A stretch of DNA of 64,000 nucleotides from Bremerella volcania (GTDB lineage Bacteria > Planctomycetota > Planctomycetia > Pirellulales > Pirellulaceae): assembly GCF_007748115.1 (NCBI RefSeq), contig NZ_CP036289.1, positions 6,138,001 through 6,202,000 on the forward strand, in the 5' to 3' direction. Made by a program: the position numbers and the translations under genes. The number at the start of each line of letters is the position of its first letter. Position 1 is the first letter of the stretch. Below, one piece after another: positions 35,024 through 44,813 of this stretch. The notes below the pieces were generated by a model. The model worked only from the letters and a program-made list of their open reading frames with translations, made no database searches and was not told where the DNA came from.

Positions 35024-35917
35024 TTACGCTCGATCGATACGCAGCCGTGCCGGCAAGCCTTCCGGCATCTTCGCTTCATCCTGGGCGATCAACCGAATCA
35101 CTGGACGTTTGGGGGGCAACAGTGCATCGTCGGCGTAAACCACGTCGAAGCTCCCCTCACCAGGCCCACTGGCAACGGAACCATCCTCAAGGGCGTTTTC
35201 GGCCTGCAAGTGCTGCCAACTCCAACGCCGAAGCCATGCGGCAATGTCGTTCAAGTCGTGCTGCTTACTGTCGGCATACACTTCGAAGTCACGCAAACCG
35301 AGCTGCGCGTTACCGATCGTTTCAAAAATGATCCAGCGATCGTCCAGCCATGACAGCCGTAGATTGGCAAACAGATCCAGCGGCGGAAACCCGGCGACTT
35401 TGCTGGCCTGGAGAATTTCGTCGAGCACTTCGACCGGGACGAAGATCTCGCCGCCGGGGCAGAAATAACCAGCCACATCGGGAAGTAAGCCGATCGACAA
35501 ACTGACCTTGGCCAAGGCCATCAACTGCGTAAGCACCTCGGTTGCCGTCGACGGCTCTGAGGTTTCGTTCCTCATACGCACCAGGACAACACCTTGATGC
35601 TGGGCAGCAACTTCCGCGGCCTTCGTCCAATTCACGTTGAACTTACAAGCTCGCTCGAGCGCTCCGCTGTAACTAAACGGCCCCAGGTCTTGTTCCGGTT
35701 CGATCTTGGCCGGCCAGGGAGCTTCGACAATCTCGATGGCGACAATGGGGCCGTCGCTTGGCAGTTTCCCTTGAAGCGTGCGGACGCTGTTTTCATCGTC
35801 CGCCTGCTCAATCGTGCAGGACAACTCGCCTGCTTCCAATTGCTCTTGAATCTCCTTTAGGGAGAAGACTCGCTTGGTGAGCAGTGCCAACGCTTGCGTG
35901 TGGACAGCTTTCGACAC
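35024..35917 (-). CDS. Hypothetical protein, DUF4261-like, in the polyketide operon
   Basis: 297 residues from a GTG at 35917 with a GAGGGGGG ribosome site. Mixed alpha/beta cytosolic protein. VAGYFCPGGEIFVPVEVLDE near 157-176 followed by a helical segment and then LSWLDDRWIIFETIGNAQLG resembles the DUF4261 group (function unknown), but the match is loose. It is 44 bp after the polyketide synthase stop on the same strand and is likely part of the same transcript. No catalytic motif is apparent. Confidence 0.6.
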   Translation of the reverse strand: MSKAVHTQALALLTKRVFSLKEIQEQLEAGELSCTIEQADDENSVRTLQGKLPSDGPIVAIEIVEAPWPAKIEPEQDLGPFSYSGALERACKFNVNWTKAAEVAAQHQGVVLVRMRNETSEPSTATEVLTQLMALAKVSLSIGLLPDVAGYFCPGGEIFVPVEVLDEILQASKVAGFPPLDLFANLRLSWLDDRWIIFETIGNAQLGLRDFEVYADSKQHDLNDIAAWLRRWSWQHLQAENALEDGSVASGPGEGSFDVVYADDALLPPKRPVIRLIAQDEAKMPEGLPARLRIDRA

Positions 35918-35961: not shown

Positions 35962-38900
35962 CTATTTCGCCGCGTCGTTGGATTCGGCTTTCAATTTTTC
36001 CAGCTCTTCGGCGGTCGCGTCAACCGTTTGCCGGATTTGTTCTTCGCTGTGGCAGCTGGTAATGAAAAACCGCAGACGGGCTGCCTTCTCTTCCACCGCG
36101 GGATACATAATCGGCTGAACGTTATAGCCGCGAGCGTACAGAGCTCGCGAGAGCCGCAAGGCCAGCAGTGAGTTGCCGGTGATAACCGGCACAACCGGCG
36201 TATTGTTGCTCAGCCCCGTATCGAGCCCCTTTTCCTTGGCCAGCTTGAGGAACAAGCGGGAGTTGCTCATGCACTTGGCAACCACTTCCGGGTGCTTCTC
36301 GATTCGCTCGAACGATGCCAGTGCAGCCGCCGCGTTCGAGGGTGGCATCCCCACGCTGAACACGAAGCCGGGTGCCGTGTACTTGAGGTACTCGATCATC
36401 GTCTTCTTGCCGGCAATGTAGCCGCCGCAGCTACCTAGCGACTTGCTGAGCGTTGCCATCAGGAAATCAATCCGCGAACCGGGAATGCCGAAGTGTTCGC
36501 AAATGCCTCGGCCTGTCTTGCCCATCGTGCCGATCGAGTGGGCCTCGTCGACGAAGAGCATCGCCTTGTACTTTTCCTTGATCTCGACCAGCTTGGGCAG
36601 GTCGCAGTAGTCGCCGTCCATGCTGTAGACCCCTTCGACGACAATCACGGCCCGGCGATACTTGTCGCGCATCTCGGCCAGCATCCGCTCGCAGGCAGCC
36701 GTATCGTTGTGCGGAAACGCACGTCGCTGAGCCCCCGAGAGGATGCACCCTTGCACCAGGCTGTTGTGGGCCAGTTCGTCGTGCAGAATCAAGTCGCCTG
36801 GGTTCATCAAATGGCCAATCGTGGTCTCGTTGGTCGAGTGACCACCGACGAAACAAACGGCGGACTCAGTCCCCACGAACTCGGCAATCTTGCGTTCCAG
36901 CTCTCCGTGGATCGTCTTTTCGCCGGAGACGACGCGGCTGGCGGAAACACTGGTGCCAAACTTCTCGATGGCGGCCTGGGCGGCGGCGGTCACTTCCGGA
37001 TCGCCACTGCTACCGACGTAGTTGTAACTGCTGAAGCAGATGAACTCGCGACCAGCAATGATGGCCGTGTCACGCGTCGTTCCTTCGTGGACGTCGAAGT
37101 AAGGGCTTTCCATCCCCATCCGGGCAAACCGCGCGATACGCTCTTGCAGTTCGACCACTTCGGGAAACTGATCGGTCTGGAAATCGGACGCCGGAATGTC
37201 TTCCAGAGCACGCGCCGGCTTTTCCTTTGCGGCCGGGGCCGAAGCTTCGCCGCCACCACCTGATGTGAAATCCCCTTCCACGCCTACTAGATTGGCAACG
37301 ACCGTGGCGAGGCTGGTGACCGTAGTATCCTGCGAGAACTCTTCGACCGGAATGTCGATCTCAAGCTCTGCCTCGATCGCGTTCTTCAGCTCGATCCCCA
37401 TCAGCGAGTCGAGCCCCATCTCGGCCAATGGTTTGGCTCGATCCAACTGCGAATTGCTGATGCCCAGCGTCTTGGCGGCTTGATCGGCAACGTAATCGCC
37501 AATCATCGCGGCTCGCTTGTCGTCATCGGCTGCCGCCAAACGATCGCGCAGCGCCCCGCCTGAGGCCGCGCCGACGACTCGTTCGTGACGATGAATCTTG
37601 GCAAGTTCGTCCAACAGTCGCGGATGCTTGTTGCGTCCGAACTGTTTGAGGAACTTCGCCCAGTCGACCGGAAAGACGCCGACGTCGGCGTAACGGGTCG
37701 GCAGAAGTTCTTCCAGGGCCAGCAGTCCCTGCTGCGGAGCAATCATGCCCAGGCCGATTCCGGCAAGCCGTCGGGCGTCGGCCGACTTGGCCATGCCACC
37801 GCCACTCCAGGGCCCCCAGTTGATGCTCAGGCCGGTCAGGCCTTCAGAACGGCGACCGGCACAAAGGGCATCCATGAACGCATTGGCCGCGGCGTAGTTG
37901 GCTTGTCCAGGCGAACCGATCATCGCGGCAATCGACGAGAAGCAGACGAAGTAGTCCAGCGGCAATTCGCGCGTTTGCTGATGCAAATACCACGAGCCGT
38001 CCACCTTGGCCGGCAACACCTGGGCGAAGCGATCCCACGACTGCTGCGCGATCGTGGCGTCGTCCAGCACGCCGGCGGCATGGAAAACGCCTGCCAGCGG
38101 TGGAAGTTCTGTTTTGATGAAATCGAGCACCGCGGCAACCTGGTCGGCACGCGCGGCATCCATGGTCGAAATGGTGACCTGGGCGCCTTCGCTTTCCCAG
38201 GCCGCGATCCGCTCGGCGGCCGCCTCATTCGCTTTACCGCTGCGGCTGGTAAGAACGACGCTTTGGGCTCCCTGCTCGATCAACCACTGGGCGACTTCCA
38301 GGCCAATGGCCCCGGTGCCGCCAGTAATCAGGTAGGTCGCGTTTTCTCGAATCAACGGACGTTCACCGGCAGGCGGCGTCATCTGCAGCACGACCTTGCC
38401 CAGGTGCTTGGCCTGCTGCATGAAACGAAACGCTTCGACGGCGTCTTCAATGCGATAGGCCTGCAAGGGGAGGGGAGTCAGCTTGTGCGATTCAAACTGT
38501 GGCAGTAGTTCTTCGAGCATCGCCGCGATAAGTCCCGGCGATTTGCGTTCCTCGTCCCCCAGATCAAACGGAAAATAGGTCGCGCCGGACTTGGCCTCGG
38601 CAAACTGCTGGGTCGTCCAGATACCGATCTTGCCGATCTCGACGAAACGCCCCTGCTTGGCAAGGCATTCGACGCTCTTGGGAATGAACTCTTGATTCAA
38701 GCTATTGAGGACGACGTCGACCCCTTCGCCGCCGGTATCTTTCAAAATCTGATCGCTGAAGAGCGTGGTTCGCGAATCGTATATGTGTTTGATCCCCAGC
38801 GAATGCAGGAAGTCCCACTTGCCTTTGCTGGCGGTTGCGTAGATCTCGGCACCGACGGCCTGAGCGATCGCCACGGCAGCTTGCCCCACGCCACCGGCCG

Positions 38901-41900
38901 CCGCGTGAATGAGGACCCGTTCCCCTTTGCGGAGCCTGGCCAGCCGCACCAGTCCATAGTGCGCGGTCAGAAACGCGAGCGGAATCGTCGCTGCTTCGTC
39001 GAACGTCTGCGTGCTTGGCTTCTTGGCGACGTAGTTTTGATCGACCAGCAGGTGACTGGTCATGCTGGCTGTCGAAAGCGCGATCACCTCGTCGCCGACC
39101 CTCAGATTCTTCACCTGGCTGCCAACCGCCGTGACGACGCCGCTGCACTCGAAACCAAAGGTCACGTCCGCTTCGGTGAGGATGCCGATCTCTTTTTCGT
39201 ACTCCTGAAGCATCCCCAGGGCCCGCAGCACATCGCGGAAGTTGAGTCCCGACGCTTTGACGGCGATCTCGACTTCCGTCTCCGCTGGTTCGATGCGTGG
39301 TTTGGGGACCAATTCCAGATTGGTCAGCATGCCGAACTTCTTCAGGCCCAGCTGATACGGCTGTTCGGGAATCGTCAACTCGCCATCGACCGCCAGTCGC
39401 ATCGGCATCAACCGTGACGAGAAACGCTTCTCGCCGCGCAAGGCGATTTCTGTTTCCGAGTCAGGCACCCAGATTTCACCAAGCAACCGGCCAGCCGTAT
39501 CGCGATCGGCCGCGTCGACGTCGATACGCGTGCAGTTGAGCTTGGGCAATTCGTTGGCAATGACGCCCGCCAAGCCCCACGTGGCCGCTTCTAGGGGGTG
39601 TCCAATCTTGTCGCCGGAGTAAATCCGCTGACCACCCAGCGTGACGACGTATAGCCGCGGCGATTGATCTTCCCGCTGCCCCAGGGCCTGGGCGACATGC
39701 AGAAGCCCTTGGCAACCCAAAGCATGGTCGACCATCGACTCGTTCGCTTTGCCGGACAGATCTTGCTGTGCCCACAGGTAGATCACGCCGCGCAACTTCC
39801 GCGAGTTCGAAAGCTCGAGCGAATCGAGCAGTTCGACGAACTCGCCAGGCTCGGCCGGATCGAGCGTGGCATCGACTTCGCCAAACTCAAGTTCGGTGCC
39901 TGGGAAGACCTGCATCACTTGCTGCTTACGCTGCTCGAGTTGCTCGACGAGATACTCCGTCATGGGTCGACCGTCACCGAAGATGAGCCAGACCGACTCT
40001 TCTTTTTCATCCACCGTCAGTGGGCTACCAATCCGCGGCGTTTCAAGCCACTTGACCTCGTGGTACCAGCGATCGACGTCGGCAACCAGACGCTTCTGCA
40101 GGTCGATCTTGGCGAGACGGGCCAGCTTCAACCCGCGCACCTCAGCCAGGACTTCCCCTTCTTCATTGGCCAGCAGAATGTCGGCTTCGACCTGCGGCAT
40201 CCGCCCCGGCTTGCGAGCGACGATCTTCGACCAGCAAGCGACTCGCTGCGGCGAGTGCCCCTCGAAGCAGGTCACGCTGCCAACACCAATCGGGATGAAC
40301 GTCGTGCCTGGCGTTAGTTCGTCGGCCAGCAAGCTCCCCACGGTCTGGAAACAGGCGTCGAGCAGCGCTGGGTGCAGGTGATAGTTACGCGCATCGCTTT
40401 GAAGATCAGTCGGCAGCGCCACTTCGGCCAAAGCTTCGTCTTCACCGTTTCCAAGCTGCTTGATCCCCTGGAAGGCATGACCATATTGCAAGCCGCTTTG
40501 TTTCGCTCCGGCGTAGAACTCTTCGACGTCGACCTGCTTTTCCATCCGGAAGAAAGCTTCCTGCAGGTCGGCTTTCTCAGGCGGAGCCACAGCCGGGACG
40601 ATCTTCCCAGCCGCGTGCAGCTTCCATGTCGTCTCCTCGCTATCGGTCGTTTCGGCACTGAGAATACGGAAGGAAGCATAGCCGAACTCTTCCGGCATCA
40701 GAACGACCTGAACCGTCTTGGAGTGCTGCTGTTCAAAGACGAGCGGCTGCTGAACTTGCAACTGTTCGACGGAGAAGTGTCCTTGCTCGAAGTGCGATTG
40801 GGCGGCTCCGAGCGCCAATTCGATGTACCCTGTCGCCGGAAAGACCGGGTTGCCGAACAACTGGTGATCGTTCAGATATGCCGGGAAACCCGGTGCCAGG
40901 TTCGTTTGAAAGAGCACCTCGTCGGTTGCCGTGGGGATCTTCACTCCCAACAGCGGATGCGAGGTGCGGGTAGGTATGAGCCCAGTGCCCGAGCCGAAGT
41001 CTTCGCCACTGGAAACCGGCATCGTATCCGGTGCCCAGAACCGGCTGCGCACAAACGGGTAGGTTGGCAGCTCAATTCGCTTTCGAGCATAAGGAGCATC
41101 AAACGCTTTCCAGTCGATCGCGATGCCGATCTCATGCAGTTCGCCCAGCGAGTTGAGCATCATCTGCCAATCGTCTCGACCACTGCGCAGGCTCGGCAGC
41201 CAGGCGTTTTCCTTGCCTGGCAGGCTTACGAGTCCCAGCCCTGAAAGTACCGGCTGCGGTCCGATTTCGACGAAGACGTTGCCCCCTTTGGCCGCGATCG
41301 CCTGGATTCCATCGGCAAAACGAACGGCTTCGCGCAGATGTTGACGCCAATACTGAGGCTTGGTGAACGCGTCTTTGGAAAGCTCGCCGGTTAAATTCGC
41401 AGCGATGGGAAACGCGGCCGGTTTCATCTCAATCAAGGAAACGGCCTGTTCGAATTCGTCGAGAATCGGCTCCATCAAATTCGAGTGAAACGCATGCGAA
41501 ACGGTCAGCCGCGTGGCACGAATACCTTCGGACTGGCATAGCTCGGCAACTTGATCGATCACTTCCGCCGCACCACTAAGGACCGTCTGCTGCGGGCTGT
41601 TCACCGCGGCAATGCCGACTTGACCGGCATGTCCGTTCAGGAGCGTTTCAATACGATCGGCACCGGCCGAAACCGCCAACATTGCGCCACCGGCCGGCAA
41701 GCTCTGCATCAGCTTGCCGCGCAGCGCGATCAGCTTCAGCGCGTCTTCGAGCGAAAACACACCCGCGACACACGCCGCGACGTATTCACCGACACTGTGG
41801 CCAATGGCCATGCTCGGCGTGATTCCCCAAAACTTCCACAATTGGTACAGGGCGTACTCGGTGGCAAACAGCGTTGGCTGCGACATGGCCGTCTGATGGA

Positions 41901-43665
41901 TAGTCTCGCTGTCGGTCTCGGCAAACAGCACGTCCAGCAGCGGCACGTCGTACTTCTTGAGTTGGGCGGCACACTGGTCGATTGCCTCACGGTAAACGGG
42001 GTGCAACTCGTAGAGGTCGCGTCCCATCCCGGGATATTGTGATCCCTGTCCTGTGAACAGGAACACCACCTTGTTGCGGCGACGCACCGGTTGGCCGTCG
42101 GTCGAATCCTTCGAGCCCTTTTCGACCAGCTTATGAAGCGCAGCGATCGCCTCTTTCTTATTCGCGGCATTGACGAACGTCCGGGCATCGAGCGTCGAAC
42201 GGCCCACGGCCACACTATGAGCAAAGTCGGCCAGCGAAATCGATTCGTCTTCCAAAGCTTCCAGGTAACGCTCGGCCAGCAGAGGTAAGCCATCTTGCGT
42301 CTGGGTCGAAAGCGGAATGATATGTCGCGGGCGATCCTTGAACGCCGGGGCCTTCGCTTCGGTGTCTTTCGAAACGTAGTCCCCCACGATGATGTGACAA
42401 TTCGTTCCGCCAAACCCGAACGCGCTGACGCCAGCCAAGCGATTGCCGGCATCACTGTTCCAGGTCTTAACCTCGGTAACGATCTCGACTTCCGCCCCAC
42501 TCAGGTCGATGTACGGATTGAGTGTTTCGAAATTCAAATGGGGTGGAATCTGGCCTTTGCTGAGCGAAAGGACCAGTTTCAACAGGCCGGCCATCCCAGC
42601 GGCCGATTCCAAGTGGCCGATGTTGGTTTTGACGCTTCCCAGGCGAAGCGGATGCTGGGCATCGCGCCCCATGCCCAGGACGTTCTTCAGGCTGCGGACT
42701 TCGATCGGATCTCCCAGCGAAGTCCCGGTGCCGTGGGCCTCGATCAGTTCGATCGCTTGCGGCTCAAGCTGGGCATCTTCCAAAGCGGCGTTCAGCACTT
42801 CCTGCTGCGAAGGACCATTAGGGGCAGTCAGACCATTGGTGAGGCCATCTTGATTGACTGCCGTTCCATGAATGACGGCCAAGATACGATCCCCATCGCG
42901 CTCGGCATCGCTCAGCCGCTTCAGGATGACGGCGCCGCACCCTTCGCCGCGAACGTAGCCATCGGCGCTGGCATCGAAGGTCTTACAACGCCCATCCGGG
43001 GCCATCATGCGTGCCTGACAGAAGGTGATTGTCCCTTCAGGTGTCAAAATCAAGTTCACCCCGGCCGCGACGGCCAGGTCGGTCTCGCCTGATTGAAGAC
43101 CTTGGCAAGCAAGGTGAGCCGACACAAGCGAAGACGAGCAAGCCGTATCGACCGCAATACTCGGCCCGCGAAAGTTAAAGAGGTAGCTCAATCGGTTGGC
43201 CGCGATCGACAAGCTGGTGCCGGTGGCACTATATGCGTTGAGCGAATCGAGCCCGCGGAACAAGAGCCTTGCGTAGTCACTGTTGCTGATGCCGACGTAA
43301 ATGCCGGTCGCGCTGTTGCCTAGCGTTTTGACCGGGATGCCGGCATTCTCGAAGGCTTCCCAGGTCACCTCGCACAGCAGCCGCTGCTGCGGATCCATCT
43401 TTTCCGCTTCGCGTCCGCTGATGCCGAAGAGGGTCGGATCGAAGTCGGCCACATTGCTGAGGAAGCCACCCCGCCGGGTGTACATCTTGCCGGGCGTTGC
43501 AGGCTCGGGGTCGTACAGGCGGTCGACGTCCCAGCGGTCCGGAGGAACTTCGCCAATGGCGTCCCGACCTTCGATCAACAAGTTCCAGAAAGCTTCCGGG
43601 CTATCGGCCCCGGGCAAACGACAACCGATTCCGATAACGGCAATCGGTTCATGTTTTGGCTGCAT
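35962..43665 (-). CDS. Highly reducing type I polyketide synthase with C-terminal alpha-oxoamine synthase
   Basis: 2567 residues from the ATG at 43665 (the frame to 43794 adds no similarity). Domains in order: KS 1-430 (Cys176, His311, His351); AT 533-870 (GHSVG, Ser624; HAFHS, the malonyl type); DH 902-1190 (His934 in HxxxGxxxxP, Asp1103); KR structural part 1200-1430; ER 1445-1765 (HAAAGGVGQAAV at 1587-1598); KR 1770-1960 (TGGTGAIG 1781-1788, LDD, Tyr1924); ACP 2045-2125 (Ser2087 in GLDSL); alpha-oxoamine synthase 2165-2560 (FSSYNYVGSS, His2300, DEAH at 2373-2376, PLP Lys2408 in LSKSLG). There is no thioesterase or methyltransferase. The terminal domain should release the chain by decarboxylative condensation with an amino acid, giving an alpha-aminoketone. 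Preceded by ACP and PPTase genes. Confidence 0.95.
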   Translation of the reverse strand: MQPKHEPIAVIGIGCRLPGADSPEAFWNLLIEGRDAIGEVPPDRWDVDRLYDPEPATPGKMYTRRGGFLSNVADFDPTLFGISGREAEKMDPQQRLLCEVTWEAFENAGIPVKTLGNSATGIYVGISNSDYARLLFRGLDSLNAYSATGTSLSIAANRLSYLFNFRGPSIAVDTACSSSLVSAHLACQGLQSGETDLAVAAGVNLILTPEGTITFCQARMMAPDGRCKTFDASADGYVRGEGCGAVILKRLSDAERDGDRILAVIHGTAVNQDGLTNGLTAPNGPSQQEVLNAALEDAQLEPQAIELIEAHGTGTSLGDPIEVRSLKNVLGMGRDAQHPLRLGSVKTNIGHLESAAGMAGLLKLVLSLSKGQIPPHLNFETLNPYIDLSGAEVEIVTEVKTWNSDAGNRLAGVSAFGFGGTNCHIIVGDYVSKDTEAKAPAFKDRPRHIIPLSTQTQDGLPLLAERYLEALEDESISLADFAHSVAVGRSTLDARTFVNAANKKEAIAALHKLVEKGSKDSTDGQPVRRRNKVVFLFTGQGSQYPGMGRDLYELHPVYREAIDQCAAQLKKYDVPLLDVLFAETDSETIHQTAMSQPTLFATEYALYQLWKFWGITPSMAIGHSVGEYVAACVAGVFSLEDALKLIALRGKLMQSLPAGGAMLAVSAGADRIETLLNGHAGQVGIAAVNSPQQTVLSGAAEVIDQVAELCQSEGIRATRLTVSHAFHSNLMEPILDEFEQAVSLIEMKPAAFPIAANLTGELSKDAFTKPQYWRQHLREAVRFADGIQAIAAKGGNVFVEIGPQPVLSGLGLVSLPGKENAWLPSLRSGRDDWQMMLNSLGELHEIGIAIDWKAFDAPYARKRIELPTYPFVRSRFWAPDTMPVSSGEDFGSGTGLIPTRTSHPLLGVKIPTATDEVLFQTNLAPGFPAYLNDHQLFGNPVFPATGYIELALGAAQSHFEQGHFSVEQLQVQQPLVFEQQHSKTVQVVLMPEEFGYASFRILSAETTDSEETTWKLHAAGKIVPAVAPPEKADLQEAFFRMEKQVDVEEFYAGAKQSGLQYGHAFQGIKQLGNGEDEALAEVALPTDLQSDARNYHLHPALLDACFQTVGSLLADELTPGTTFIPIGVGSVTCFEGHSPQRVACWSKIVARKPGRMPQVEADILLANEEGEVLAEVRGLKLARLAKIDLQKRLVADVDRWYHEVKWLETPRIGSPLTVDEKEESVWLIFGDGRPMTEYLVEQLEQRKQQVMQVFPGTELEFGEVDATLDPAEPGEFVELLDSLELSNSRKLRGVIYLWAQQDLSGKANESMVDHALGCQGLLHVAQALGQREDQSPRLYVVTLGGQRIYSGDKIGHPLEAATWGLAGVIANELPKLNCTRIDVDAADRDTAGRLLGEIWVPDSETEIALRGEKRFSSRLMPMRLAVDGELTIPEQPYQLGLKKFGMLTNLELVPKPRIEPAETEVEIAVKASGLNFRDVLRALGMLQEYEKEIGILTEADVTFGFECSGVVTAVGSQVKNLRVGDEVIALSTASMTSHLLVDQNYVAKKPSTQTFDEAATIPLAFLTAHYGLVRLARLRKGERVLIHAAAGGVGQAAVAIAQAVGAEIYATASKGKWDFLHSLGIKHIYDSRTTLFSDQILKDTGGEGVDVVLNSLNQEFIPKSVECLAKQGRFVEIGKIGIWTTQQFAEAKSGATYFPFDLGDEERKSPGLIAAMLEELLPQFESHKLTPLPLQAYRIEDAVEAFRFMQQAKHLGKVVLQMTPPAGERPLIRENATYLITGGTGAIGLEVAQWLIEQGAQSVVLTSRSGKANEAAAERIAAWESEGAQVTISTMDAARADQVAAVLDFIKTELPPLAGVFHAAGVLDDATIAQQSWDRFAQVLPAKVDGSWYLHQQTRELPLDYFVCFSSIAAMIGSPGQANYAAANAFMDALCAGRRSEGLTGLSINWGPWSGGGMAKSADARRLAGIGLGMIAPQQGLLALEELLPTRYADVGVFPVDWAKFLKQFGRNKHPRLLDELAKIHRHERVVGAASGGALRDRLAAADDDKRAAMIGDYVADQAAKTLGISNSQLDRAKPLAEMGLDSLMGIELKNAIEAELEIDIPVEEFSQDTTVTSLATVVANLVGVEGDFTSGGGGEASAPAAKEKPARALEDIPASDFQTDQFPEVVELQERIARFARMGMESPYFDVHEGTTRDTAIIAGREFICFSSYNYVGSSGDPEVTAAAQAAIEKFGTSVSASRVVSGEKTIHGELERKIAEFVGTESAVCFVGGHSTNETTIGHLMNPGDLILHDELAHNSLVQGCILSGAQRRAFPHNDTAACERMLAEMRDKYRRAVIVVEGVYSMDGDYCDLPKLVEIKEKYKAMLFVDEAHSIGTMGKTGRGICEHFGIPGSRIDFLMATLSKSLGSCGGYIAGKKTMIEYLKYTAPGFVFSVGMPPSNAAAALASFERIEKHPEVVAKCMSNSRLFLKLAKEKGLDTGLSNNTPVVPVITGNSLLALRLSRALYARGYNVQPIMYPAVEEKAARLRFFITSCHSEEQIRQTVDATAEELEKLKAESNDAAK

Positions 43666-43723
43666 CGAAAAGGCTTCCGTCGCAGGTGAATGAAAGCAGG
43701 GCAGACTCCGGGCAATTGTGGGC

Positions 43724-43999
43724 TTACTTCTCGCCCGCCAGATAGCTGGAGAACTCTTCGATCGTGGGGTAATCGTAAACGATCGTCGGATCAATCCGTT
43801 TCCCGAGCCAGTTTTCCATATCGCCGGTCATTCCAATGGCCGTGGCCGAATCGAGGGCGAAGGAATCGAAGGTAGCGCTTGGGTCAATCGAGTTGGGACT
43901 CGTATCCAACTCTTTGGCAAGATAATCGATAATCCAGTCTTGGATTTCTTCCGCGGACTTAGGCGCATCGCCGGAAGGTCCGGATGGCTCGGCTGTCAT
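43724..43999 (-). CDS. Free-standing acyl carrier protein
   Basis: 91 residues from the ATG at 43999, which has a GAGGTG site 6 nt upstream (the ATG at 44026 adds 9 residues and has none). PP-binding fold: IQDWIIDYLAKEL, then FALDSATAIGM with Ser51 as the phosphopantetheine site, then LGKRIDPTIVYDYPTIEEF. The pattern is that of carrier domains paired with AMP ligases or loading polyketide synthases, not the fatty-acid AcpP. It is 58 bp upstream of the synthase and 49 bp downstream of the PPTase. It may deliver a starter acyl group. Confidence 0.88.
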   Translation of the reverse strand: MTAEPSGPSGDAPKSAEEIQDWIIDYLAKELDTSPNSIDPSATFDSFALDSATAIGMTGDMENWLGKRIDPTIVYDYPTIEEFSSYLAGEK

Positions 44000-44048: not shown

Positions 44049-44813
44049 CTATCGACCACTCACCCAACCGAACGTTTTGATCTCTGGCGAGTCTCCATGA
44101 GTCGAACCGACGGCCCCGACAAACCCTTCACAGGGTGCCAGTTCCATCAAACGAACGACCGGAGATTGCGGGAAGATGTCGAAATGGTTCACAACCCGAC
44201 GCGACTCAGGAGCTTGAAGATCCAGAGTTATGCGATCCAGGGGTGCCCGCAGCCCGACTCCGATGGTCTTCAGGTAGGCCTCTTTGTGGGTCCAGAACCG
44301 GAGAAATTGGTGGAATCGATCCGCTTCCGGGTAAGCACAAAGGTCTTTCCGCTCAGCGTCCGAAAGGCAACGCTGGAGCATGCTAGCGAAGCTGCGAACT
44401 TTGCGGATGCGTTCGATATCGACGCCCACTTCCATTCCTATCGAAACCGCGACAACGGCCAGTTCGCCTGAGTGCGTCAGATTAAAACGCAACTCACCGG
44501 CCTGACCTCGAATGATGTTCGGTTTGCCGAATTCGCCAGCTTCGTAGGCAATTTCGGCCGGCTCGACATCTAAATACCGAGCCAGAATGTCCCGCAGGGC
44601 AGCGTGGAATACGACGTACTGCTGGGCCTGGTTTTCGCGGAAGAATTTGGAGGCCCGCACCTGCTCGGCTTCCGAAAGCTGCTTATGCAATTGATCGACG
44701 CCCGACAGGCCTTCCTCAAACGAAATCCGCCACAGGTGCAGTTCCGTTTGAGCGATTTCCAACTGTCGCATCGGACGCGGCAGAGGAAACGGCTTGGTGG
44801 AAAGTTGAATCAT
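44049..44813 (-). CDS. 4'-phosphopantetheinyl transferase, Sfp type
   Basis: 254 residues. The enzyme converts apo-ACP to holo-ACP by adding phosphopantetheine from CoA. The two conserved blocks are present: GVDIE (130-134), with the Mg-binding acidic residues, and WTHKEAYLK (174-182). Earlier FNLTHSGE at 110-117 is the usual substrate-facing loop. It is the first gene of the operon PPTase - ACP - polyketide synthase, whose carrier domains are the obvious targets. Confidence 0.93.
   Translation of the reverse strand: MIQLSTKPFPLPRPMRQLEIAQTELHLWRISFEEGLSGVDQLHKQLSEAEQVRASKFFRENQAQQYVVFHAALRDILARYLDVEPAEIAYEAGEFGKPNIIRGQAGELRFNLTHSGELAVVAVSIGMEVGVDIERIRKVRSFASMLQRCLSDAERKDLCAYPEADRFHQFLRFWTHKEAYLKTIGVGLRAPLDRITLDLQAPESRRVVNHFDIFPQSPVVRLMELAPCEGFVGAVGSTHGDSPEIKTFGWVSGR

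Follow-up and report, generated by a model that had tools for sequence, protein, structure and literature searches.

A polyketide synthase ending in an alpha-oxoamine synthase domain in Bremerella volcania, a candidate single-protein route to sphingoid-like lipids

The megasynthase gene and its neighbours

The stretch of the Bremerella volcania genome analysed here (64,000 nucleotides of NZ_CP036289.1, hereafter the window; the genome is one contig of 6.5 Mb) encodes on its minus strand a megasynthase of 2567 aa (35962..43665), in which a type I polyketide synthase (PKS) is followed by an alpha-oxoamine synthase (AOS) domain, so that it is referred to below as PKS-AOS. We put the probability at roughly 0.7 that this protein builds a saturated chain and releases it with an amino acid, most likely L-serine, as a sphingoid-like alpha-aminoketone, judging from sequence comparison and from analogy with known systems. 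The gene was delimited using Pfam and frames of the same genus: the open reading frame (ORF) spans 35962..43794 and would give 2610 aa if the TTG start at 43794 were used, and the ATG at 43665 yields the 2567-aa protein, the four same-genus relatives (frames of 2563-2567 aa) likewise beginning with MQPKHEPI.

Pfam finds the order ketosynthase (KS), acyltransferase (AT), dehydratase (DH), enoyl reductase (ER), ketoreductase (KR), PP-binding and Aminotran_1_2, all exceeding the cut-off (330.5 bits for the KS, 46.9 for PP-binding and 159.8 for Aminotran_1_2). The KS with its C-terminal extension (42175..43650, residues 6-497; PF00109, PF02801, PF16197) carries C176 within DTACSSS, and the AT (41119..42066, residues 534-849) carries S624 within GHSVG together with a HAFHS motif, which we take to be of the malonyl type. 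The DH (40108..40959, residues 903-1186) with H934 and D1103 is separated by a probably structural region (PF21394; 39499..39987, residues 1227-1389) from the ER (38386..39282, residues 1462-1760), which has an AAGGVG nucleotide motif. The KR (37804..38340, residues 1776-1954) contains GGTGAIG and Y1924, and the acyl carrier protein (ACP; 37300..37494, residues 2058-2122) has S2087 within GLDSL. Thus a fully reducing type I PKS module with its catalytic residues is present, each residue lying where the initial annotation had placed it, as do K2408, H2300 and the DEAH motif (2373-2376) of the C-terminal domain that depends on pyridoxal 5'-phosphate (PLP). This AOS domain (35965..37191, residues 2159-2567) was assigned by Pfam, by trees and by H2300, D2373, H2376 and K2408. 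The absence of a thioesterase also held, with no such family among the 23 Pfam families listed for the protein.

PKS-AOS is a real, intact and conserved enzyme gene under strong purifying selection. The ratio of nonsynonymous to synonymous substitution rates (dN/dS) against the four same-genus copies was 0.010-0.097 over the four segments tested, and the AOS had the lowest value in three of the four comparisons (0.010-0.033). A single ORF with the same domain order also occurs in four other genomes of the genus, as well as in Blastopirellula marina DSM 3645, Planktothrix agardhii and a distant planctomycete (genome G107), which excludes a chance ORF. It is very improbable that the AOS serves a structural or transaminating rather than a condensing role, or that the PKS forms just one module within a longer assembly line. 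The KS is indeed of a type seen in modular PKSs, but the AOS has kept its catalytic residues and is the most constrained segment in most comparisons, no further PKS ORF was seen among the ORFs of the window, and, apart from one 3621-aa frame, the remaining KS matches of the genome lie in frames measuring 393-493 aa. The 3621-aa frame (L053, C1:4156818-4159109) has two ketosynthase domains and is possibly a PUFA (polyunsaturated fatty acid)-synthase-like megasynthase.

The PKS-AOS gene is flanked by two genes on the same strand. A 4'-phosphopantetheinyl transferase (PPTase; 44049..44813, minus strand; Pfam ACPS, 63.1 bits) lies 383 bp upstream and likely activates the ACP of PKS-AOS. It accompanies PKS-AOS in all ten loci of the own genus and the Blastopirellula group (the window, L034-L039 and L060-L062), and was not found within the available flanks of the fused loci L040, L055, L065, L210, L211, L212 and L214. 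A DUF4261-like protein (35024..35917, minus strand; PF14080 with 26.0 bits, below the cut-off of 27) is encoded 44 bp downstream, possibly in the same transcript, and a homologue is also found downstream of PKS-AOS in L034-L037 and L061. A promoter and terminator scan upstream of PKS-AOS gave nothing exceeding shuffles. Twenty-six other window proteins, including these two, were scanned with Pfam (four had no match at the thresholds used), and the remaining window was judged by eye.

Family and relatives of the alpha-oxoamine synthase domain

The PLP lysine (K2408), the PLP-contacting aspartate (D2373), the stacking histidine (H2300), H2376 and the fold place the C-terminal domain in the AOS family. 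Its predicted fold (pLDDT, the predicted local distance difference test, of 91.4) has template modelling scores of 0.89-0.91 to the serine palmitoyltransferase (SPT) structures 3a2b and 8guh and to KBL 1fc4. Foldseek ranks SPT 3a2b first by E-value and ThAOS 7pob next and near-equal, and the model matches SPT 3a2b, ThAOS, KBL and 5-aminolevulinate synthase structures at similar scores; by sequence, the best PDB match is ThAOS (8s1y, 7poa-7poc), titled promiscuous. Of the 165 NCBIfam models matched by PKS-AOS, the 25 listed all stayed below their cut-offs, the best AOS-type scores being 351 bits for bioF (cut-off 426) and 315 for BioF/Kbl (535). The window protein likewise differs from free-standing bacterial SPT in failing to reach the curated cut-offs, which among the SPT reference proteins were passed by L179 and L189 only. 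These scores and the AOS tree rule out that the domain is a BioF, a KBL or a free SPT. The genome has four AOS-family matches, namely PKS-AOS, a second carrier-linked AOS, BioF and KBL, with no free SPT among them, which makes an aminoketone route without a free SPT plausible in this organism.

The phylogeny was built from 153 AOS domains, out of which 84 rows were chosen for a quick tree and 65 for a careful one that adds three PDB fragments. In the 65-row tree the carrier-linked AOS domains form one clade (100/99), apart from the sampled rows of BioF, KBL and free bacterial SPT, and the window AOS lies within it together with SgaB/RkpG-type AOS enzymes encoded after PKS genes. A grouping with a non-condensing PLP enzyme, which the initial annotation had named as an outcome that would refute its reading, was not what was found. 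As a separate observation, the plant LCB2a is sister of the carrier-linked clade (99/97) and not of bacterial free SPT, a placement that needs caution because this sole eukaryotic row sits on a long branch. At 45 active-site positions, chosen from conserved AOS columns, the window AOS agrees with an AMP-ligase-type protein at 44 and with two-gene AOS enzymes at 41-43, compared with 30 for LCB2a, 29 for SPT 3a2b and 30 for the BioF/KBL-like ThAOS 8s1y. This comparison assigns the AOS to its clade, and it favours no particular amino acid.

The same release chemistry could operate with glycine, alanine or another amino acid and give a deoxy-sphingoid or other aminoketone natural product, which we hold to be clearly unlikely, if well worth keeping in mind. 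AOS families with similar sites differ in the amino acid that they use, the promiscuous-titled ThAOS is the best match by sequence and near-best by structure, and the two-gene AOS domains, being 49-58% identical to that of the window, are not close; nor do the 45 positions discriminate between substrates. By contrast, the sole assayed relative, PfSgaB, is reported to form a serine aldimine and to prefer L-serine almost exclusively over alanine and glycine, with acyl-CoAs as the partner (PMC12134224). The initial annotation's proposal that the chain leaves as a sphingoid-base-like alpha-aminoketone thus gains support from the clade of the AOS and, by analogy, from this serine-using relative.

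Several known systems resemble PKS-AOS. SgaAB of Pseudomonas fluorescens MYb115, the closest one with experimental tests and needed for C24-C28 sphinganines according to the same report (PMC12134224, Nat Commun 2025), likewise pairs a type I PKS, there iterative, with an SPT-like AOS and would share its aminoketone/sphinganine chemistry, but it consists of two proteins, its KS and AOS belong to different lineages (judged from the stand-ins P. putida L126 and Pseudomonas plasmid L054), and its cluster holds the short-chain dehydrogenase/reductase (SDR) SgaC, of which no counterpart was found beside the window gene. RkpA/RkpG of rhizobia and WcbR/WcbT of Burkholderia similarly combine a mono-modular PKS with an AOS partner, but as two genes inside capsule clusters, a context absent from the window; PKSs of this type have been described in such clusters (PMC3908369, PMC4245539, PMC7902896). 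For the comparison, the S. meliloti pSymB locus L059 is presumed to be the rkp locus and WcbT the AOS of the Burkholderia capsule system. The fused proteins of P. agardhii plasmid p3 (2532 aa, WP_042158693.1) and G107 have the same full domain order in one ORF, but lie on separate branches of the KS and AOS trees, with AOS identities to the window of 50-53%. In Actinomycetota, Myxococcota and Ectobacillus, KS-AT-(KR)-AOS proteins (11 of the 80 loci described below) also join PKS domains to a C-terminal AOS in one chain, but DH and ER are undetected and they occupy other branches of the AOS tree; the A-CP-KS-AT-PLP2 architecture of a 2013 survey (PMC3870968) is comparable. In the AMP-ligase-ACP-AOS proteins of Pirellulales a sister AOS follows the ACP, and an AMP ligase instead of a PKS provides the chain. 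In saxitoxin SxtA and prodigiosin PigH, too, the AOS is a release domain behind a carrier protein; to our knowledge neither chain also holds a complete reducing PKS module.

Carrier-linked AOS systems are commoner in bacteria than the initial annotation had suggested. From the genome-wide AOS scan the best 80 of 582 relatives were analysed: 43 combine AMP-binding and AOS in one ORF without a KS, 4 are complete PKS-AOS proteins (L060, L061, L062, L065), 3 are truncated C-terminal fragments carrying KR and AOS (L090, L091, L121), and 11 combine KS-AT, in some cases also KR, with an AOS, DH and ER being undetected (10 by domain search, L110 checked for KS and AOS only); the ORFs of L074, L081 and L110 and the AOS ORF of L128 were taken from six-frame ORFs. 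The nearest named relative is that of B. marina DSM 3645 (AOS identity 76%). An AOS search (E <= 1e-60) matched 202 of the 392 genomes of the phylum, BioF/KBL kin included, and among the matches listed frames of more than 2500 aa occur in at least eight genomes (five from the own genus, two from genus g2, plus G107). Two-gene PKS and AOS pairs are found in Pseudomonas, Bordetella, Roseibium, Methylobacterium, S. meliloti and two planctomycetes (L049, L050), and also in Caballeronia, with a deacetylase gene between, and in Thiomargarita, with the PKS split over two frames. The two-gene loci L054, L126, L058 and L139 contain an SDR, the first three also LTA (lipoteichoic acid)-synthase-like proteins, and L054, L126 and L139 capsule-type genes; a sphinganine-based lipid anchor for the capsule is possible at such loci. 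In G107, downstream of the fused gene (L040:5213-15457) come same-strand genes for a CTP-transferase, an SDR and a DAGK_cat lipid-kinase-like protein, a set that from its sequences looks like a compact sphingoid phospholipid operon and would fit reduction and head-group attachment. The same genome encodes a 2044-aa protein with AMP-binding, ACP, KS, AT and AOS (L041:5150-11284), another arrangement of chain supply before an AOS.

The kind is already in print, since a 2013 survey lists AOS-ended carrier proteins: A-CP-AOS of B. marina (the A-CP-PLP2 entry A3ZWL3, an AMP-ligase-ACP-AOS example), A-CP-KS-AT-AOS (A-CP-KS-AT-PLP2) and CP-CP-AOS of Streptomyces griseoviridis, KR-CP-AOS of S. albus and CP-AOS of Anabaena circinalis (PMC3870968). 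Spt-like proteins have been reported in 138 metagenome-assembled genomes of Planctomycetota, in an article that does not contain the word polyketide (PMC11334938). No description of a complete reducing PKS-AOS protein in planctomycetes appeared among the literature titles and abstract openings listed. AOS-ended PKS proteins and their chemistry are therefore known already; the novelty lies in the fully reducing form within one protein and in its apparently separate origin.

Origin and distribution of the fusion

The KS tree comprises 43 rows, namely a set of 38 less L053, L053_1, L135_1, L050_1 and L132, plus ten comparators; phylogenetic groups were named by architecture, and the approximately unbiased (AU) tests were made once the trees were already known. 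The KSs of the Pirellulales PKS-AOS proteins (99/98) stand away from the SgaA/RkpA type and group (97/98) with type I PKS KSs of Planktothrix, Nostoc and Gloeothece; these cyanobacterial KSs are labelled modular-type because of how L194 and L197-L199 are annotated, L196 having no annotation. Their AOS domains (99/94), by contrast, are sister to those of the Pirellulales AMP-ligase-ACP-AOS proteins (97/96), with joint support of 99/98 in the 65-row tree, and the quick 84-row tree agrees on this core (96). AU tests rejected a single clade of all fused and two-gene systems for both the KS (p-AU 7.3e-5) and the AOS (p-AU 9.3e-4), and accordingly no joint descent of PKS and AOS with SgaA/SgaB-like proteins was found, stand-ins being used for SgaAB. 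Since a single clade is rejected for both domains, coupling of PKS and AOS seems to have evolved more than once, and the one-protein form seems to have come together separately from the two-gene system.

The alternative of a direct fusion of SgaA and SgaB (or RkpA-RkpG/WcbR-WcbT) acting in the same capsule-linked pathway is improbable. Domain order and chemistry are the same, the two-gene loci of S. meliloti, Pseudomonas, Bordetella and Roseibium adjoin capsule genes, and the G107 fusion (L040) does group with two-gene PKS and two-gene AOS in the trees. However, the Pirellulales domains part company with that system in both trees, the one-clade arrangement is rejected by the AU tests, and no capsule gene family was present among the window proteins scanned; a plain SgaA-SgaB fusion was rejected on the basis of the two trees and these tests. 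The comparisons instead indicate that the fusion probably arose within Pirellulales, when a PKS resembling cyanobacterial modular ones was placed before an AOS that elsewhere stands behind an AMP ligase and an ACP, with the junction, on weak evidence, probably between ACP and AOS.

Within the family of the window (100 genomes), an AOS match at E <= 1e-100 is found in 90 genomes (70 of the 73 of good quality). The PKS form occurs in nine, all domain-checked (G000, G205, G327, G121, G339, G488, G527, G538, G478), and 74 of the other 81 matched genomes have the AOS in frames of 1080-1339 aa, the size of AMP-ligase-ACP-AOS proteins, the AMP domain being confirmed in 50 loci and not genome by genome for frames of this length. 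G396, G488 and G538 are apparently the same genomes as L062, L061 and L065 and hence not independent. A further AOS-like domain (36-37% identity) occurs in Blastopirellula-group genomes, in L156 (G396) and in frames of 1103-1112 aa of G339 and G121. Six of the nine PKS-form genomes also have an AMP-ligase paralogue with an AOS 47-55% identical to that of the window, and none was found in the other three at E <= 1e-100; AOS identity is no sharp divider, as some genomes without the PKS form also reach 50-55%. The AMP ligase may be FAAL (fatty acyl-AMP ligase)-like, as its DIP2-like domain suggests. No conserved lipid partner was found beside AMP-ligase-ACP-AOS in the 50 loci, the commonest neighbour family occurring in 11.

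The paralogue of the own genome (L042:7923-11309; AOS at 2313934-2315130 of contig C1) consists of AMP-binding, DIP2-like, ACP and AOS domains and adjoins an aldo-keto reductase gene. In all five own-genus copies asparagine replaces the PLP-contacting aspartate, which is kept in the other 45 of the 50 aligned. Against canonical proteins the AOS of the paralogue is conserved less well than its AMP domain, with a median difference of -3.3 points, whereas canonical pairs have +11.4 (the canonical set leaving out L112, L113, L116, L120, L127 and L138, of 50, as distant). Nevertheless, its AOS is under purifying selection (dN/dS 0.028-0.077), which rules out simple decay and makes a changed role likelier than loss. 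The replacement suggests that function was handed over to the PKS form, with a shift of role in the paralogue afterwards.

Proposed chemistry and biological meaning

We infer that an iterative, fully reducing PKS would use malonyl units to extend a saturated chain, carried on its own ACP, which the neighbouring PPTase would activate. The acyl-ACP would then be passed to the C-terminal AOS, where an external aldimine with the amino acid, most likely L-serine, could condense with the acyl thioester under loss of CO2, so that the chain would leave as a 3-keto-sphinganine-like alpha-aminoketone. Products of genes elsewhere in the genome would then reduce it and attach a head group.

Several observations count against this chemistry or against the origin proposed above. 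Iteration is deduced from the presence of a single module, while the KS is of the modular-PKS type. All NCBIfam SPT models score below their cut-offs (312/640, 274/500 and 217/670 bits), and the 45 compared positions fail to separate serine-using from other AOS enzymes. No SDR, lipid kinase, CTP-transferase, head-group or capsule gene was present among the 26 Pfam-scanned window proteins, so that the locus lacks the SDR resembling 3-ketodihydrosphingosine (KDS) reductase that an SgaAB/RkpAG-type system would have, and the best SDR of the genome reaches 34% identity and is unlinked to PKS-AOS. The genome search thus gave no convincing KDS reductase partner, and this SDR was dropped as a candidate (the gene adjoining it was judged HflX-like by eye only). 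The SDR of L040 is 29-32% identical to two SDRs of two-gene loci, a level that unrelated SDRs also reach. As to origin, the KS-tree comparators were picked from the top matches of the window KS, which is a weak point. The ACP comparison, which had no two-gene ACPs, is weak as well, the next-best matches after Pirellulales PKS-AOS including the AMP-ligase loci L120 and L138 and the fused L040, L121 and L055. Finally, the two trees disagree on the paralogues L042 and L047: the quick one puts them next to L041 (85), beyond the Pirellulales clade, and the careful one within the AMP-ligase clade, so that the paralogue can be called an old copy only by conjecture.

A wider scenario for Pirellulaceae remains tentative and, taken as a whole, rather unlikely. 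A carrier-bound AOS might make a near-universal aminoketone or sphingoid membrane lipid, with a FAAL-like ligase feeding it ordinary fatty acids in most genera, a dedicated PKS of cyanobacterial modular stock replacing this supply in a few genera, that of the window among them, and the ligase-AOS paralogue changing its role as the PLP aspartate became asparagine; in those genera a polyketide synthase would then make the backbone of a core lipid.

If the proposed chemistry is true, the single-protein PKS-AOS would turn malonyl-CoA and an amino acid into sphingoid-like lipids by a compact route, and planctomycetes would be candidates for sphingolipid-type lipids that markers based on free SPT could miss. 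The distribution suggests a testable case of PKS-AOS coupling evolving more than once, and a core, little-studied lipid enzyme across Pirellulaceae.
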